Assembly: GCA_035623075.1 (NCBI GenBank)
Contig: DASPUC010000024.1
Location: forward strand, 186,001 to 250,000
From: Nitrospiraceae bacterium
GTDB taxonomy: Bacteria; Nitrospirota; Nitrospiria; Nitrospirales; Nitrospiraceae
Direction of reading: 5' to 3'
Length of the DNA stretch: 64,000 bases
Numbering within the stretch: position 1 is the first letter of the stretch; every line of letters starts with the position of its first letter. Position numbers and translations under genes: made by a program. Shown piece by piece: positions 23,309 through 31,239 of the stretch. Below the pieces are notes generated by a model. The model did not search any database. It was not told the origin of the DNA and saw only the letters and a list, made by a program, of their open reading frames with translations.

Positions 23309-24882
23309 CGCGCCACCTCGCTCGTTGGGACCACCGCCATTTTCTTATCCGGTTGTTTTTTGACCACCATTGCTACTGTCCGATTCGACTTCGTGAAATA
23401 CTGGGCTGCCACTCGCTGGATATCCGTCGGCTTCACCGCGGCAATCTTGTCGCGCGATTTCAAGACATAGCGCCAATCGCCGGCCACGGTTTGGAAGAGC
23501 GCCAGTTGGGACGCCAAGCCGCCGTTGGATCGAAGGGCGCGGACCAGATCGGCATCGAGATTGTTGACCACTTTTTCGAGTTCCTTTGCCAAAACGGGCT
23601 CGGTTTTCAGCCGTTCCAATTCTTCGTAGATTGCGGCTTCGACCTCCGCCGTCGTGTGCGGCGCCAGCGGCGTGGCGGTGAGGATGAAGAGATTCGGTGC
23701 ACGCACACCGGGGTAATTCGCATCCGAACCGATCGAGGCTGCCAGTCGTTTCTCCCGCACGAGCTTGGAATACAATCGCGACGTCAGCCCGTCGCTCAAC
23801 ACGGCGTCGATCACGTCGAACACGTAATCGTCGGCATGGCCGAGCGCCGGCTTATGGTAGCCGATCGCCACGGACGGCTCAGCATCGAATTCCACCTCGA
23901 CACGACGCTCCCCCCGTTGCGGCGGTTCGACCGTGACGATCTGAGGCGGAGGGGGTGCGGCTGGGATCGTACCGAACGTTTGTTCGATCAGCGCAATGAC
24001 CTCTTTTGGATCGATATCACCCACGATGGCGATCGTGGCCCGGCCGGGACCATAATACGTCTTGAAGAACGCCTGCGCCTCAGCCGGCGTCAACGAAAGA
24101 ATGTCCGATTCCCAGCCGATCGTGGGAATCCCGTATGGATGCGCGCGGAAAGCCGCCGATGTGAATGTTTCGAACAAAAGCCCGTTCGCACTGTCGTCGT
24201 TGCGCAGGCGCCGTTCCTCCATGACAACGCCCCGTTCTTTGTAAAATTCCCGAAGGACCGGGTTCGCCATGCGATCCGACTCAAGTGCGGCCCAGAGAGG
24301 GAGACGATTCGACGGAAGGCTGATCATGTAGCGCGTAAGGTCCTTGCCGGTCGAGGCATTGAGCCCGATCCCGCCGTGCCGCTGGTAGAGCAACGCCATT
24401 TCGTTGCCCATGACAAACTGCGCTGCCTGTTCCTGTAACGAGGTGAACCGTTTTTGGAGCGCCTCGATGCCCGCGGTTTCCTCGGAGCTTGCCGGCCCAT
24501 CTGCGATTCTCCTGGTCAGCTCACGCTGCCGTTGTTCGAGCTCGGTGCCGACTCGACTCAGCTCCTCAAGTATTGGACGTTCTTTTTCATAATTCTTGGT
24601 CCCGAGCGTCCGCGTACCTTTGAACGCCATGTGTTCATAAAGATGGGCGAGACCGGTCTGGCCAACCTGCTCGTTTACACCTCCGACCCCGAAGGTCATA
24701 TTGATCGAGACGACCGGTGTCTGGTGTCGTTCAACCATGAGAAGGGTCAATCCGTTGGCCAGCTTGTGTTCGATCACACGATCGGCAAGACCGGACGCAC
24801 TTGCCAATTCGCTGATCACGGGCATGAAGCCTATGACGAATATGAGCATGAAGATGACGTTGAGACGTAACGGTTTGGTCAT
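23305..24882 (-). CDS. M16 family zinc peptidase, catalytic subunit
   Basis: A 525-residue exported protein. The ATG at 24882 overlaps the upstream stop (ATGA) and gives a signal peptide (VIFMLIFVIGFMPVISELASA). The zinc motif is GLAHLYEHMAFKG (HxxEH), with a downstream glutamate region around EERRLRNDDSAN. M16 metalloproteases degrade short peptides in a closed chamber. The inactive partner is encoded immediately downstream with a 4-base overlap, so a heterodimer is expected. The peptides cleaved are unknown; pitrilysin- and PqqF-type enzymes are relatives. Confidence 0.92.
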   Translation of the reverse strand: MTKPLRLNVIFMLIFVIGFMPVISELASASGLADRVIEHKLANGLTLLMVERHQTPVVSINMTFGVGGVNEQVGQTGLAHLYEHMAFKGTRTLGTKNYEKERPILEELSRVGTELEQRQRELTRRIADGPASSEETAGIEALQKRFTSLQEQAAQFVMGNEMALLYQRHGGIGLNASTGKDLTRYMISLPSNRLPLWAALESDRMANPVLREFYKERGVVMEERRLRNDDSANGLLFETFTSAAFRAHPYGIPTIGWESDILSLTPAEAQAFFKTYYGPGRATIAIVGDIDPKEVIALIEQTFGTIPAAPPPPQIVTVEPPQRGERRVEVEFDAEPSVAIGYHKPALGHADDYVFDVIDAVLSDGLTSRLYSKLVREKRLAASIGSDANYPGVRAPNLFILTATPLAPHTTAEVEAAIYEELERLKTEPVLAKELEKVVNNLDADLVRALRSNGGLASQLALFQTVAGDWRYVLKSRDKIAAVKPTDIQRVAAQYFTKSNRTVAMVVKKQPDKKMAVVPTSEVAR

Positions 24883-25526
24883 ACGAAAAGCTCCGTCAGT
24901 TCTTCCGGTCGTTCGATAAACCAATCGGGTTGACAGGCAACCATTCTCTCCCGGTTGCCCATCCCGTATCCCACTGCACAAACCCGGATTCCTGCGTTGT
25001 GCCCCCCATTAATGTCGTTGGTGCTGTCTCCCACCAGGACGGTTCGATCTCTTGGCACGTTCAATTGCTCCATCACATGAAGCAACATCCCAGGCTCCGG
25101 TTTTAAACCAAAGCCATTGTCCCCGCCCACGACACACTGGAAATGGTCGCCGCCGAGTCCTTGCAGGATGACCGTGGTGTACTCGATCGATTTATTGGTC
25201 GCCACGGCCTTACGCTTCGTTCCGAAATGCCTGAGTATTTGCTCGACGCCCGGATAATAGGTCGTGCGATCCAGGCAATGGGCCAAATAATGCCCGCGAA
25301 ACACGTACAGTGCCTCTTCGAAGCTGACGCGGTTATTGTCGCCTACGGCCAACCGCAACAGCTTCTTGACCCCGTCACCCACGAAACCAAAAATTTCTTC
25401 CAGCGGCCGTTGCGGGAGCCCCAACTCCTGAAGGGTCAGGTTTACCGATTTGGCGATGTCCCACTTGGACTCGATGAGTGTTCCGTCCAAATCGAAGATG
25501 AGCAGATCCACCGGGGTCTTCGCCAT
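24879..25526 (-). CDS. HAD-family phosphatase, phosphoglycolate-phosphatase-like
   Basis: A 215-residue HAD hydrolase. Motif I is LLIFDLDGTLIESKWD (nucleophile Asp and general acid Asp), motif II lies in AVATNKS, and motifs III/IV are GLKPEPGML and VLVGDSTNDINGGHNAG. The cap between motifs I and II matches phosphoglycolate phosphatases, which detoxify 2-phosphoglycolate. The exact substrate is not proven. The ATG at 25526 shares a base with the upstream TAA, and the stop overlaps the M16 peptidase start; this tight coupling marks one operon. Confidence 0.9.
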   Translation of the reverse strand: MAKTPVDLLIFDLDGTLIESKWDIAKSVNLTLQELGLPQRPLEEIFGFVGDGVKKLLRLAVGDNNRVSFEEALYVFRGHYLAHCLDRTTYYPGVEQILRHFGTKRKAVATNKSIEYTTVILQGLGGDHFQCVVGGDNGFGLKPEPGMLLHVMEQLNVPRDRTVLVGDSTNDINGGHNAGIRVCAVGYGMGNRERMVACQPDWFIERPEELTELFV

Positions 25527-26077
25527 TACTTTGCCTTTCGCAGTTCCTCTTGCAACGTCGCGAGCGCGGCGCGCTTTTCCGAATCGGTTTCTTTGATCCA
25601 GGCTTCCCGCACAAAATTCACCATGCGCTTTTGACCGACGTGCGGTGGAAGCAGCGGATCGACAATTGTCCACCGGTTTTTGATAGCTTTCACGCGAAAA
25701 CGAACTTCTTCCGTCTCGGGCTTCGACACAAATCCGGCCGTTTCGAAGTACACAAGCCCCATCACATGAAAGGTGACGGGAATGACGACCTCCATCCGGT
25801 CGATGACTTCCCACTGACGGTAATCCTCAGCCACCACGAAGTCCTGTGTCACGACCGCCCGGCTCCAGAGAGGCTCTTCCTTCCAACTGGTGTACGGCAA
25901 CATGGCATCGATGGTCATCGATTCGAGGCGGGCTCCTTTCTTGTCCAATCCCAGATAGCGCTTCACGACCTCTGCCGGAGAATTAGTCAATGATCCGGTT
26001 TGCGCCGACCCAAGAGCCGGAGTCATCACCAGAGCTGCGAGCAACGTCAGAATGATGGACGCGCTTCTTCCTACCAT
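25526..26077 (-). CDS. Exported protein of unknown function
   Basis: A 183-residue protein with a signal peptide (SIILTLLAALVMTPALGSA). A mixed domain follows, containing SPAEVVKRYLGLDKKGARLES and FVSKPETEEVRFRVKAIKNRWTIVDPLLPPHV. The last phrase resembles exported NTF2-like or DUF4878-like domains, but I cannot name a family. The ATG at 26077 is chosen because it starts the signal peptide. It lies 50 nt after pyruvate kinase and is coupled (TAATG) to the HAD phosphatase. Confidence 0.7.
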   Translation of the reverse strand: MVGRSASIILTLLAALVMTPALGSAQTGSLTNSPAEVVKRYLGLDKKGARLESMTIDAMLPYTSWKEEPLWSRAVVTQDFVVAEDYRQWEVIDRMEVVIPVTFHVMGLVYFETAGFVSKPETEEVRFRVKAIKNRWTIVDPLLPPHVGQKRMVNFVREAWIKETDSEKRAALATLQEELRKAK

Positions 26078-26127: not shown

Positions 26128-27579
26128 TCACTCCACTTCGTGCAGCTTCATGAGGTTCGTACGCCCCGGCTGGCCGATTCGAGTTCCCGAGAGAATGACG
26201 ATCCGTTGACCGGGCTTCACCAGTCCCTCGGCTTTCAACCGACGTTCCGCTTCATCGACACGTTCGTCCGTCTGTGCGATCTGTTGCATGGTGTGGGGAA
26301 TGACCCCCCAGTAGAGCGCCATCCGTTGCCGGATCGACTCAAACGGGGTAAAGGCGATGATCGGAGCAGCGGGACGCTGTTTGGAGATCAACCGAGCCGT
26401 CAATCCCAATTCGCTGAACGCCACGATGGCGTTGGCCGTGATCGCAGCGGCCGCGGTTGAGGCAGCCGTGCAAATCGCTTCCGAACAGGAGATCTCATCA
26501 TGGTTGTGAACACGCCGCTGCGTCGGGGTTGGCTCGATCCCTTCCTCCGCGGCTCGAATGATCCGATCCATGACGTGGACTGTCTCAACCGGATATTGGC
26601 CGATCGCGGTCTCAGCGGAAAGCATGACGGCATCGGATCCATCGAACACGGCATTGGCGACATCCGACGCTTCTGCTCTGGTCGGGCTCGCGCGCTGCGT
26701 CATTGACTCCAACATTTGGGTCGCGGTGATGACGAGACGGCGACGACGGTTGGCCTCCGCGATGATACGTTTCTGTAAGATCGGCACGGCTTCTGGTCCC
26801 ATTTCGACGCCCAAATCGCCGCGCGCAATCATCACACCGTCCGCCTGATACAGGATGGCGCTCAGCGTGCTCACCGCTTCGGATCGTTCGATTTTCGCGA
26901 TAATTGGGAGATCCCCGTTGCATTCGGAGACGACCTGTCTTGCTGCGACCACATCCTCAGGACCGCGAACAAACGAGAGGGCCAGATAATCGACACCCGC
27001 CGCCACGCCAAATCGAATGTCCTCTCGATCCTTTTCCGTCAGAGTCGGAGCGCTGACGCGCGTCCCGGGAAGATTGATACCCTTATGTGATGTGATCCTT
27101 CCACCCGTGATGACCGTGCACTCGACGACACCACCGGTGATTCGGTTCGCGACCAGTTCGATGAGTCCATCGTCGATCAGAATCCGGGCACCAGGTTGAA
27201 CATCACGGACGAGGTACTGATAGGTCACGGAAATCTCCGGAACGCCGGATGAAGCCACGGAGGAGGCGCCGAGCTGTCCTCCGGACCGCGCAAGCACGGT
27301 CTGTAATCGCACGGACTGGCCGCTGGTTACTTGGACCCCGCTCTCACCCAGATCGCCGACACGGATTCGTGGTCCTTGCAGATCCTGGATGATCGCGACC
27401 GCCACTTGTCTGCGAGCCGCAGCTTCACGGATCGTCTGAATGGCGCGGCCGTGCGACTCGTGAGTACCATGAGAAAAGTTCAGCCGGGCCGCATCCATGC
27501 CGTTCTCGATGAGCCGGTCCAGCGATGCCAGCGAATCACTGGCTGGACCGATCGTGCACACGATCTTCGCTTTTCTCAT
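26128..27579 (-). CDS. pyk: Pyruvate kinase
   Basis: A 483-residue pyruvate kinase, which converts phosphoenolpyruvate and ADP to pyruvate and ATP. Signatures are RKAKIVCTIGPASDS at the start, ARLNFSHGTHESH, the active-site block PIIAKIERSEAVS, then MIARGDLGVEMG and SDAVMLSAETAIGQYP. The C-terminal allosteric domain is present. The start at 27579 follows AAGAAGGAATC. It heads the minus-strand run down to 19162 and faces the phosphofructokinase fusion gene across a 192-bp divergent region; TACAAT at 27624-27629 could be its -10 element. Confidence 0.97.
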   Translation of the reverse strand: MRKAKIVCTIGPASDSLASLDRLIENGMDAARLNFSHGTHESHGRAIQTIREAAARRQVAVAIIQDLQGPRIRVGDLGESGVQVTSGQSVRLQTVLARSGGQLGASSVASSGVPEISVTYQYLVRDVQPGARILIDDGLIELVANRITGGVVECTVITGGRITSHKGINLPGTRVSAPTLTEKDREDIRFGVAAGVDYLALSFVRGPEDVVAARQVVSECNGDLPIIAKIERSEAVSTLSAILYQADGVMIARGDLGVEMGPEAVPILQKRIIAEANRRRRLVITATQMLESMTQRASPTRAEASDVANAVFDGSDAVMLSAETAIGQYPVETVHVMDRIIRAAEEGIEPTPTQRRVHNHDEISCSEAICTAASTAAAAITANAIVAFSELGLTARLISKQRPAAPIIAFTPFESIRQRMALYWGVIPHTMQQIAQTDERVDEAERRLKAEGLVKPGQRIVILSGTRIGQPGRTNLMKLHEVE

Positions 27580-27771
27580 GATTCCTTCTTCTTGCTTGAC
27601 AAGACGGGAACAGGCACCCAATCATTGTAGACCAGCGCCAGCAGAAATCGGGTATCGGGGTGGCTGAAGGGCCATTCGTCCTCGCGCTCTGCGCACGGAA
27701 GTCATTCTAGCAAACGAGAATTCTGGCCGCAAAGGTTCTTCGAGACGCTGACGAGCGGTGAAAGGGTGGCA

Positions 27772-30087
27772 ATGGGAAGTGACACGGGACGACTCGATTT
27801 CGTAACGATCGACGGGTTACTGGCATACGGGGCTGCGCTCGCACAACGCCAACCGGGCGAAGGCGCACTCCTCCCTCCGCCTCCTTCTCCATCCGTCGAC
27901 CGACTTCATCTAGTTCATCGCGCGATGGATCAGATACGCGGTTTTGTCCAGCGCGCTCAAACCGGGTTTCCCGGAGCCGAAGCGTACCGGTCAGCCCGTC
28001 AGGCAATTCTGCGGGAAAGTTGCGCGGGTGACGACCTGGTATTTTTCGCCGCGTGGAACCGGCTCCTTGCCGAAGGTGAACTGTTGCCCTTGCTTCATGC
28101 TTCCATCGGATCGGTGTTGAAGCCGCCCCACCGCCGGCCGGTGGCGATTGTCCCGCGGGCTCACCTCACGCCGCAGTTGGCCGAGGGTCGCATCGTGCTG
28201 GACTTGGGCGATGATCGGTTCTGGCTGCTGCCTCGCGATTTGACAGGCCGAACGTTGCTCTTCACGATGCGCCACGGCATTTCCCGCGTCGAGAGCAAAA
28301 CGCATCGGGTCGGGCGCCGCTTGATGAACCAACTCGATGCTGAGCAGGGCATTCCGCGAGCAGACGCGGTTGGTGCCGCGTTGGCCCGGATGGTCGGCGT
28401 GGTGGCCCAGCAACTCGATTTTCTCCATCTGTCAAATTATCTCGATCCGCACACGTTCCTTCACTTCATCAGTCACAGTCCCAACACTCGACAACTCTAT
28501 AACCGAGTGATTGGTGCACTTCTCCCCGAATCCGTTGCACCCCCTGAACCGCTGCTCGAAGCAGCGCTGGAGTCGTCGGATTTTGGGTGGGTGACCGGCA
28601 TGGAGAAAACGATGGAGGCGGAGGAGGCGGCCAAGGCCTTCGGCGTGGACGTCAAAACAGCTAAGCGCCTTCTCAAGGACCCTCTGTACTGTTATCCGGG
28701 CGGCAATTCGTTTTTCGATCTGTACGTGGATGTGATCGACGGCCTGCACGAGGTAGGACGATCCCATCCTGGCAAAGTCGCCTGCCTGTACACACACAGT
28801 TCGACCTTGCGGGCGCTCATGATCTATCTGGACCCGCGTCCTTTCCACGAAGCCTTCACCGAATTCAGCGACTACAAAGAGAGCCAGGATAACGTCGTGC
28901 TCCTGACGTTTGAACATGGGCGCTTATCCGGTTATTCCACTGCCGTGGGATTGTCTGAACGAGAACGGATTGCACGGGAGGCATGGATCGCCGTCGAACG
29001 GGAACGGAAGGATCGGGTCACCCTCAAGCCGCGGCAAATCAAGCGGATCGTCGCCCTGGTGTCCGGTGGCGATTTTGCCGGCGCCGGCGCTGCCTTAAAG
29101 GAACTGCGTGTGACGGGGAATCGGCTCGGCCTGGAGGTGTACTTCGTCCGTCACGGTTTCCTCGGGCTCGCGAACAATTGGATCGAGGCTGTCCGGGAGG
29201 ACGATACGCGCGGGATGAGCAGCCTTGCCAGCAGTCCGATCGGCAGCAGTCGGTTCGAAGATTTCAAGGAGGAGCAGGTCCAACAGGCCGCCATGCAACA
29301 CCTTGAACCTTACATGAAAGACAGTGCGTTGATCGTGCTGGGGGGCGACGGCAGTCTGCGAGGAGCCCGCGCGATCTATGAAAGCTTCGGCGTTCAAGTC
29401 GCCGGAATTCCCGGGACCATCGATAACAATATCGACGGCACGACCGCGCTCGGCTTCCATTCGGCCGTGGCACTCGCAAATCAGTCGATCGAATCGTTGA
29501 AAGCGACCAGCTCCGCGATGGGCAGCATCTTCTTCGTCGAGGTGATGGGGGCCGGATCAGGTCATCTTGCGTTGGCTTGCGCCTATCAGGCGAGGGCCGA
29601 AGGGGTACTGGTAAACGAACATCCTGATCCTGATGCCTATATCGACGAGTTTATTCTTGGAACCCTCAAGAGGACGTTAGGCGTACCCAATAAGAGCCAT
29701 TTATTTGTGGTGGCGGAACGCACGCCTCATCGGCACCACCGTGAGGGCGGAATCCACGGCTTGGTCGATTATGTGGCCGCAACGATTGCGCAGTGGCCAC
29801 AACGCCAGGGGAACGCCAATCAGTATCCTCTCACTGTGGCCACTAAAGCCACCATTCTCGGCCATACGCTCAGAGGAGCCCCACCCACGCCGGAAGATAA
29901 AACTATCGCCCAGCACCTGGCGTATGAGACTGTTCGACGATTGGTCGAGGACCCAGAGACTGTGGTCGGTTGTATGGTGGCCTACCGAGATCAGGCCACG
30001 ATTCAGATGATTCCCCTCCATGCCGTCGCGGCAAAACCCTTCAATTGGGAACTCTTCGCTCGGATGCACGGGAGCGAATTGTCATAA
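27772..30087 (+). CDS. Histidine-phosphatase / 6-phosphofructokinase fusion protein
   Basis: A 771-residue two-domain protein. Residues about 160-400 form a histidine-phosphatase (phosphoglycerate-mutase-like) domain: MRHGISRVESKTHRVGRR, SHSPNTRQ, YCYPGGNSFFDL and YTHSSTLRALMIYL, whose last two blocks resemble fructose-2,6-bisphosphatase. From about 425 a PFK domain follows: RIVALVSGGDFAGAG, LGGDGSLRGA and GIPGTIDNNIDGT. GGDGS and PGTID are the ATP-type residues. The usual TIDND reads TIDNN, and VEVMGR reads VEVMGAG, so phosphate-transfer and sugar-binding residues differ from standard PFK. The N-terminal 160 residues are unassigned. The ATG at 27772 fits the AAAGG site better than the GTG at 27766. 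Confidence 0.85.
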   Translation: MGSDTGRLDFVTIDGLLAYGAALAQRQPGEGALLPPPPSPSVDRLHLVHRAMDQIRGFVQRAQTGFPGAEAYRSARQAILRESCAGDDLVFFAAWNRLLAEGELLPLLHASIGSVLKPPHRRPVAIVPRAHLTPQLAEGRIVLDLGDDRFWLLPRDLTGRTLLFTMRHGISRVESKTHRVGRRLMNQLDAEQGIPRADAVGAALARMVGVVAQQLDFLHLSNYLDPHTFLHFISHSPNTRQLYNRVIGALLPESVAPPEPLLEAALESSDFGWVTGMEKTMEAEEAAKAFGVDVKTAKRLLKDPLYCYPGGNSFFDLYVDVIDGLHEVGRSHPGKVACLYTHSSTLRALMIYLDPRPFHEAFTEFSDYKESQDNVVLLTFEHGRLSGYSTAVGLSERERIAREAWIAVERERKDRVTLKPRQIKRIVALVSGGDFAGAGAALKELRVTGNRLGLEVYFVRHGFLGLANNWIEAVREDDTRGMSSLASSPIGSSRFEDFKEEQVQQAAMQHLEPYMKDSALIVLGGDGSLRGARAIYESFGVQVAGIPGTIDNNIDGTTALGFHSAVALANQSIESLKATSSAMGSIFFVEVMGAGSGHLALACAYQARAEGVLVNEHPDPDAYIDEFILGTLKRTLGVPNKSHLFVVAERTPHRHHREGGIHGLVDYVAATIAQWPQRQGNANQYPLTVATKATILGHTLRGAPPTPEDKTIAQHLAYETVRRLVEDPETVVGCMVAYRDQATIQMIPLHAVAAKPFNWELFARMHGSELS

Positions 30088-30231: not shown

Positions 30232-30690
30232 ATGATGTGTCTGAACTCACGACTTTTCTCGCCGGTGTTCCTTGGGCTGGCGCTCGCGGTCGGTTCCACC
30301 GGAAGTTTGGTCGCGCAGATCAACAATCCTGCTGCAACCGCGGCACAACACTCTGATGCTTTTCACGTTCGAACGAGTGATCCCGCATCATCTGTCACGT
30401 CTGAAACGAGTATTCCAGCGAGCACACAGGCGGAAGAGCCTCCTCAAAAAGCGAGAGATCTGTTGCATGCGATTCAGGGGCGTCAAGGCGAGCCGCCCAT
30501 GGGATATGTCGGCGGACGTACGTTTCACAACCGAGAGCGACACCTCCCCAAGGGCCGATATCGCGAATATGACGTGAATCCGAAACTGCGTGGAAGACCG
30601 CGCGACGAGGAACGTATCGTGATCGAACAAGACACAGGCAAGGCCTATTACACTGGCGACCATTATCGAACCTTCATCCCGCTGAACTGA
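30232..30690 (+). CDS. Exported barnase-type guanyl-specific ribonuclease
   Basis: A 152-residue protein with a signal peptide (FLGLALAVGSTGSLVAQ), a low-complexity linker of about 50 residues, and a C-terminal N1/T1-type ribonuclease domain: GGRTFHNRERHLP, YREYDVNPKLRGRPRDEERI and YYTGDHYRTFIPLN. The barnase catalytic residues have counterparts: Glu in REYDV, Arg in ERIVI and His in DHYRTF. It would cleave RNA, preferably after guanine. A barstar-type gene begins 6 nt downstream. The domain is shorter at its N-terminal side than in Bacillus barnase. Confidence 0.9.
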   Translation: MMCLNSRLFSPVFLGLALAVGSTGSLVAQINNPAATAAQHSDAFHVRTSDPASSVTSETSIPASTQAEEPPQKARDLLHAIQGRQGEPPMGYVGGRTFHNRERHLPKGRYREYDVNPKLRGRPRDEERIVIEQDTGKAYYTGDHYRTFIPLN

Positions 30691-30696
30691 ATACCG

Positions 30697-31239
30697 ATGA
30701 AATCCCCGTTGTCTCTCTCAAAACATCTGCAATCGACGAGAGCTCCCTGGACCTCGCTGTTGGTCCTGAAGCCGAGAGATTCCGTCGAATCTCTCGTCAA
30801 GCCTCCTCTCGGGTTCGTGCTGAAATCGATCAAAGGCGCGAAGTGCAAGACCCCGGCTGCCCTCTTTACCGAATTCGCCAAGGTGATGGAGCTCCCTGAT
30901 TACTTTGGCCACAATTGGGATGCGCTCGAGGAATGTTTGGCTGACTTGGACTGGATGCCGGCGAAGGGCTATGTACTGCTCCTCACCGATGCAGAACAGA
31001 TCCTGCCCGAGGACGAAGAAGATTATGCCACGCTGCTCGAAGTGTTGAGCGATGCCGGAGAGGCTTGGGCATCGGGACAGGCAGGGATGGGCGAGCGACC
31101 GGTCACACCTTTTCACGTGCTGTTTGCCGTCACGGAACGGGGAAAGGCGTCACGAGCCCATTGGGGAATGCAAGAGATTGCTGTCTCGGAGGATCGAGAG
31201 CCAAACGGGCAGAGACGGACTTCCAAAAAACGGACCTAA
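30697..31239 (+). CDS. Barstar-family ribonuclease inhibitor
   Basis: A 180-residue protein. The barstar fold signature is LPDYFGHNWDALEECLADLDW, followed by GYVLLLTDAEQILP. Barstar blocks barnase by inserting an acidic helix into the active site; here the key acidic pair appears as D and E within NWDALEE. It follows the barnase-type gene by 6 nt, so toxin and inhibitor are co-transcribed. The first about 35 residues and the last about 25 (basic, EPNGQRRTSKKRT) lie outside the core. Cytoplasmic location is expected, since no signal is seen. Confidence 0.9.
   Translation: MKSPLSLSKHLQSTRAPWTSLLVLKPRDSVESLVKPPLGFVLKSIKGAKCKTPAALFTEFAKVMELPDYFGHNWDALEECLADLDWMPAKGYVLLLTDAEQILPEDEEDYATLLEVLSDAGEAWASGQAGMGERPVTPFHVLFAVTERGKASRAHWGMQEIAVSEDREPNGQRRTSKKRT

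Follow-up and report, generated by a model that had tools for sequence, protein, structure and literature searches.

Organization of the locus

We analyzed a 64,000-nucleotide stretch of a Nitrospiraceae genome, referred to here as the window, and identified in it a gene that joins a histidine-phosphatase-like (HP) domain to a domain of the phosphofructokinase-1 (PFK) family, with a divergently transcribed pyruvate kinase (PK) gene as its neighbor (Table 1). The frame is open from the ATG at 27772, directly 5' of which is a Shine-Dalgarno-like GAAAGGG, to the stop at 30087, and a GTG at 27766 is an alternative start. The presence of a phosphatase and a phosphofructokinase domain in one chain, claimed in an initial annotation of this DNA, was borne out by profile searches. 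Residues 425-722 matched the Pfam family PF00365 (PFK) with an E value of 2.3e-56 and 191.6 bits, passing the gathering cut-off of 30.9 bits. The match to the HP family PF00300 was below the gathering score when the whole chain was searched (E = 1.8e-3) and barely above it when the HP piece was excised (E = 1.3e-4, 22.2 bits). All 18 orthologous HP domains that were scanned matched PF00300, the best with E = 4.3e-8, and the HP assignment is therefore not due to chance.

About 160 N-terminal residues had initially been described as unexplained, and in agreement with this the first 115 to 160 or so residues matched no Pfam family. The conserved segment on the 5' side of the RHG motif likewise matched nothing in Pfam. 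AlphaFold2 models made with four sequences as input were of low confidence, with a mean pLDDT of 44 for the N-terminal and HP part and of 36 for the PFK part.

Table 1. Features of the HP-PFK fusion gene and its pyruvate kinase neighbor (window coordinates)
Feature	Position	Strand	Remarks
Pyruvate kinase, divergent neighbor	26128..27621	-	PF00224, E = 7.6e-113; ORF from TTG 27621, likely ATG ~27579
HP-PFK fusion CDS	27772..30087	+	771 aa + stop; open frame; orthologs in 118/197 Nitrospiria genomes
N-terminal region, residues 1-114	27772..28113	+	Least conserved part; mostly predicted helical (low-confidence model); omega 0.15-0.24
Conserved segment KP..RRPVAIVPR..LTP.L...RIVLDLG..RFWLLPRDL, residues 115-160	28114..28251	+	Leads into HP domain
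Histidine-phosphatase-like domain, ~residues 161-395	28252..28956	+	PF00300 in 18/18 orthologs
RHG, residues 167-169	28270..28278	+	His168 = would-be nucleophile; invariant, 52/52
SPNTR, residues 236-240 (S-x-L-x-R site)	28477..28491	+	Arg240 variable, 30/52
Ser268, at superfamily catalytic Glu position	28573..28575	+	Ser in 51/52
His342, second catalytic His (LYTHSS)	28795..28797	+	Invariant, 52/52
PFK-1 family domain, residues 424-755	29041..30036	+	PF00365, E = 2.3e-56; NCBIfam
GGDGS, residues 524-528 (Asp103/Gly104, ATP-type signature)	29341..29355	+	GGDG invariant
PGTIDNN, residues 547-553	29410..29430	+	Gly124 and Asp127 kept; Asp129 to Asn in 51/52
Ser585, at Arg162 position	29524..29526	+	Ser/Thr in 52/52
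Ala594, at Arg171 position	29551..29553	+	Ala in 52/52
Glu649 (Glu222)	29716..29718	+	Retained
K692..H698..R701	29845..29874	+	Arg243 to Lys (52/52); His249 and Arg252 retained

Distribution and conservation

A domain search for further fused examples, as the initial annotation had proposed, recovered the HP-PFK fusion from 118 of the 197 sampled Nitrospiria genomes, nearly all of them with full-length copies of 62-89% identity. The N-terminal and HP part was not found outside the class in a sample of 198 genomes of the phylum, except for two generic HP matches with E values of about 1e-3. When genome contigs were scanned for fusions outside the phylum, only records labelled Nitrospirota were returned. 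Plasmid records gave PFK-domain matches, none of which covered 80% of the query, and viral contigs gave no match.

Against three orthologs, pairwise omega (NG86) of the HP part was about 0.05-0.08 and that of the PFK part about 0.03-0.04; against two orthologs, the N-terminus gave 0.15-0.24. All of these values are rough, because dS was high and, in several further comparisons, saturated. Judged by these ratios, the HP and PFK parts are both maintained under strong purifying selection, which argues that neither part is decaying.

Two irregular copies were seen. One is a degraded fusion with five internal stops that still adjoins a PK gene (G134:C1:133633-135933). In the other, from a metagenome-assembled genome (MAG), the HP and PFK parts are out of frame with each other and meet near the interdomain linker (G051:C1:3677962-3680249). 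This break is probably a frameshift or assembly indel of the MAG rather than a natural gene fission.

The PFK domain

The PFK domain was aligned with PfkA of E. coli MG1655, whose residue numbers are used for this domain, and with standalone ATP-type and PPi-type PFKs of the class. Residue conservation was scored over 52 fusion orthologs. In the alignment the fusion retains Gly11, Arg72, GGDG (103/104), Gly124, Asp127, Met169, Glu222, His249, and Arg252. Among these, Asp127 (52/52), GGDG, Gly124, Glu222, His249, Arg252, and Arg72 are invariant, which argues for a working ATP/phosphosugar site. The combination of GGDG with Gly124 is the donor signature of the ATP type, whereas the PPi type has GGDD and Lys124.

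The initial annotation had remarked on altered catalytic neighbors in this domain, citing the motifs TIDNN and VEVMGAG. Both are present and nearly invariant over the 52 orthologs, and the alterations are fixed features of the family: Arg162, Arg171, and Arg243 are replaced in every ortholog and Asp129 in all but one, which retains it. Arg243, a ligand of the fructose 6-phosphate (F6P) phosphate group in PfkA, has become Lys throughout. Arg162, a ligand of the F6P phosphate that comes from the neighboring subunit (PMC12203962), is likewise absent, with Ser or Thr in its place. The aligned standalone ATP-type PFKs of the class keep both arginines. Residues of the bacterial PfkA effector site have also been lost in the alignment, with K213 replaced by N and K211 by V.

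The fusion thus shares with PfkA (PF00365, TIGR02482) the fold family and the invariant residues named above, but differs from it in the four substitutions, in the altered effector site, and in the added N-terminal HP and helical regions. Against TIGR02482, the equivalog model for ATP-dependent PfkA, it scored 180.8 bits, about half the cut-off of 371, and in a PFK tree the fusions formed a separate clade on a very long stem. This pattern suggests that the domain has shifted in function or specificity rather than decayed.

The HP domain

With branch 1 of the HP superfamily (PF00300; PhoE, dPGM, and F2,6BPase), the fusion shares the RHG motif, the second His, and a YPGG.S motif ahead of the final helix-strand-His unit, although its similarity to any solved member is very weak. 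It departs from the branch in having Ser at the catalytic Glu position and a variable Arg in the S-x-L-x-R site, in a region where the low similarity makes the alignment less certain than that of the PFK domain. The catalytic Glu position is the one four residues ahead of a conserved Gly, and in the fusions a Glu or Asp sits one residue earlier. Comparison with the canonical HPs of relatives by hhalign gave a low probability from a shallow query profile; a global alignment paired the RHG motif, the SP motif, the Glu position, and the last His.

A resemblance of the phosphatase domain to fructose-2,6-bisphosphatase, as initially put forward, did not hold up. In profile searches PFKFB2 (E = 0.86) came behind PhoE (E = 0.55), neither match being significant, and the catalytic Glu and pocket Arg are not conserved. 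By eye, the fusion also has roughly 40 more residues than PFKFB between the RHG and PGG motifs. By these comparisons F2,6BPase is no closer a relative of the HP half than the remaining phosphatases of branch 1. Without the catalytic Glu and a conserved pocket Arg, the domain may have little or no phosphatase activity.

Association with pyruvate kinase

A PK gene lies within 2 kb of the fusion in at least 55 of the 118 fusion genomes (41 head-to-head, 10 co-directional downstream, and 4 convergent), and locus-level checks revealed further adjacencies beyond these. The fusion usually adjoins PK in both families of the Nitrospirales, in three relative orientations and with two types of PK, the neighbor in the sister family (f2) being of the other type and about 37% identical to the PK of the window. 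Because the pairing survives inversions and spans two PK types, it suggests that the fusion and PK are functionally tied. The other orders of the class lack the adjacency, as do some members of the largest genus. PK itself is present in 114 of the 118 fusion genomes as against 47 of the 79 non-fusion genomes, in raw counts that ignore kinship. The link to central sugar metabolism drawn in the initial annotation is strengthened by this conserved neighbor.

At four loci of family f2 (L091, L092, L096, and L098) and at L005, the different-type PK (~37% identity) occupies the same head-to-head place. Two genes past PK, on the side away from the fusion, the window contains a HAD-family (phosphoglycolate-phosphatase-like) gene (24879-25814, minus strand). 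At 30232-31239 (plus strand) it encodes a guanyl-specific, barnase-like RNase (PF00545, E = 7e-14) that seems to carry a signal peptide and, immediately after it, an inhibitor of the barstar family (PF01337, E = 2e-26); this pair is likely a secreted RNase and its immunity protein.

Other phosphofructokinases and fructose bisphosphatase

Besides an FBPase of class I, the genome from which the window comes encodes two canonical PPi-PFKs (G000:C34:22678-23637, minus strand, and G000:C14:9714-10673, plus strand), both with the motifs GGDD and PKTIDND, so that PFK and FBPase functions are available there independently of the fusion. We considered and rejected the fusion as supplier of a missing FBPase, given the class I enzyme, and as the only PFK of this genome, given the PPi-PFKs. 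The description of the protein as a bifunctional PFK/FBPase-like enzyme accordingly stands as regards its fused architecture, but not as regards an FBPase role, for which there is no need. In three of 21 relatives (G061, G062, and G330) the fusion is the sole PFK-family gene found, and elsewhere, for example in G013 and G018, standalone ATP-type PFKs occur alongside it. The PPi-PFK gene on contig C14 is located about 6 kb from one for glycogen phosphorylase.

Proposed function

The fusion is probably a specialized regulator and not an ordinary enzyme of glycolysis, to judge from its residue pattern. The reading that we prefer, with a probability of roughly 0.36, is that of a bifunctional protein specific to the Nitrospiria, a re-specialized kinase/phosphatase that would tune the amount of a sugar (bis)phosphate at the fructose-phosphate/PK node. 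The PFK domain would still bind ATP and a phosphosugar, and would phosphorylate either a changed acceptor or F6P with altered affinity. The HP domain would dephosphorylate this compound or one related to it, and the relative strength of the two activities would determine how much of the sugar (bis)phosphate is present and so steer carbon at this node. Such a protein would act like PFK2/FBPase2, the kinase halves of the two being unrelated. This reading is supported by the retention of the fusion in 118 of 197 genomes with low omega in both parts (~0.03-0.08), by the invariance of the catalytic cores (RHG and the second His; Asp127 and GGDG), by the frequent adjacency of PK, and by the coverage of housekeeping needs by the PPi-PFKs and FBPase. 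Against it stand the lineages in which PK is not adjacent, the lack of the catalytic Glu and pocket Arg in the HP domain, and the lack of Arg162, Arg171, and (with its one exception) Asp129 in the PFK domain. We regard as doubtful the more far-reaching proposal of a kinase/phosphatase couple that would have arisen in bacteria independently of PFK2/FBPase2 and would make and remove a regulatory sugar phosphate controlling PK and the glycolytic or gluconeogenic direction in nitrite-oxidizing and comammox Nitrospira and their relatives.

Given the loss of Arg162, Arg171, and Asp129, the role of the PFK domain may be confined to ligand binding. Eukaryotic PFK-1 provides an example in its C-terminal halves, which have turned into ligand-binding regulatory modules, and in our alignments the loss of Arg171 and Asp129 recalls the human PFK regulatory half, with its ISNN and MGG. 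A sensor-phosphatase, in which the PFK module would read a sugar phosphate, ATP, or both and the HP domain would provide the catalytic output on a metabolite or phosphoprotein, is accordingly a possibility that we hold tentatively. The lost effector-site residues and the invariant RHG and second His of the HP domain agree with it, but the general base Asp127, which the human regulatory half has lost, is invariant in the fusion, and the HP domain itself is without the usual catalytic Glu.

Non-consensus residues are fixed at catalytic positions in both domains, as they would be if the protein were a double pseudoenzyme acting by binding, for example to PK, with which it is associated in the genome. 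We consider such a scaffold unlikely, since the core nucleophile His168 and base Asp551 are invariant over 52 sequences, which would be unexpected had catalysis been lost in both domains.

Less probable still is a plain bifunctional glycolytic enzyme, in which an ATP-PFK making fructose bisphosphate and an FBPase or PGM-like phosphatase would be the PFK/FBPase pair of the cell. The ATP-type GGDG and Gly124, the three relatives with no other PFK-family gene found, and the FBPase activity of an HP in Mycobacterium tuberculosis, GPM2 (PMC4535450), all favor it, but it fits poorly with the PPi-PFKs and class I FBPase of this genome, with the standalone ATP-type PFKs that coexist with the fusion elsewhere, and with the replacement of Arg162 and Arg243, both ligands of the F6P phosphate. 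Despite the marginal HP match of the window protein taken alone and the frame break of the MAG near the linker, an artefact (read-through, chimeric assembly, or a chance domain call) has a negligible probability in view of the 18 orthologous HP matches, the low omega, and the identical full-length frame in more than 100 other, independent genomes, which rules out an assembly chimera or read-through as the origin of the fusion.

Bacteria of the Nitrospira class are major nitrite oxidizers, and few studies have asked how they change over from the synthesis of sugar stores to their consumption and back. The conserved HP-PFK fusion, with its tie to PK, points to a dedicated regulator, and its changed residues offer a testable case of a shift in PFK specificity or function.

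Relation to known fusions

The initial annotation named no described bacterial enzyme of this architecture, and our search of mostly open-access literature found no published description of an HP-PFK fusion. A review of the PFK superfamily published in 2025 mentions N-terminal glyoxalase-like fusions in yeast and includes neither a histidine phosphatase nor a Nitrospira sequence (PMC12203962).

In uniting a kinase-type domain for sugar phosphates with a domain of HP type in a single chain, and in its possibly opposing activities, the fusion resembles the eukaryotic PFKFB enzymes. The kinase half of PFK-2, however, has a P-loop fold unrelated to the PFK-1 family, and the kinase half of the fusion matches PF00365 only, with no P-loop 6-phosphofructo-2-kinase domain. 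The order of the domains is also reversed, and the fusion has not kept the Glu and Arg of the F2,6BPase catalytic site of PFKFB. The parallel with PFK2/FBPase2 that had been drawn is thus reasonable as an analogy of working, but fails as a statement of family membership.

The kinase of another kinase/phosphatase fusion, PPIP5K, is of the ATP-grasp type. As described in PMC11836120, PPIP5K joins its kinase to an HP phosphatase and sets the level of one signalling metabolite, a precedent for the arrangement seen here, but it is eukaryotic and acts on inositol pyrophosphates. The bacterial precedent for an HP-family FBPase is GPM2/Rv3214 of M. tuberculosis, a histidine phosphatase that genuinely acts as an FBPase and is a stand-alone protein of 22 kDa with no PFK domain (PMC4535450).
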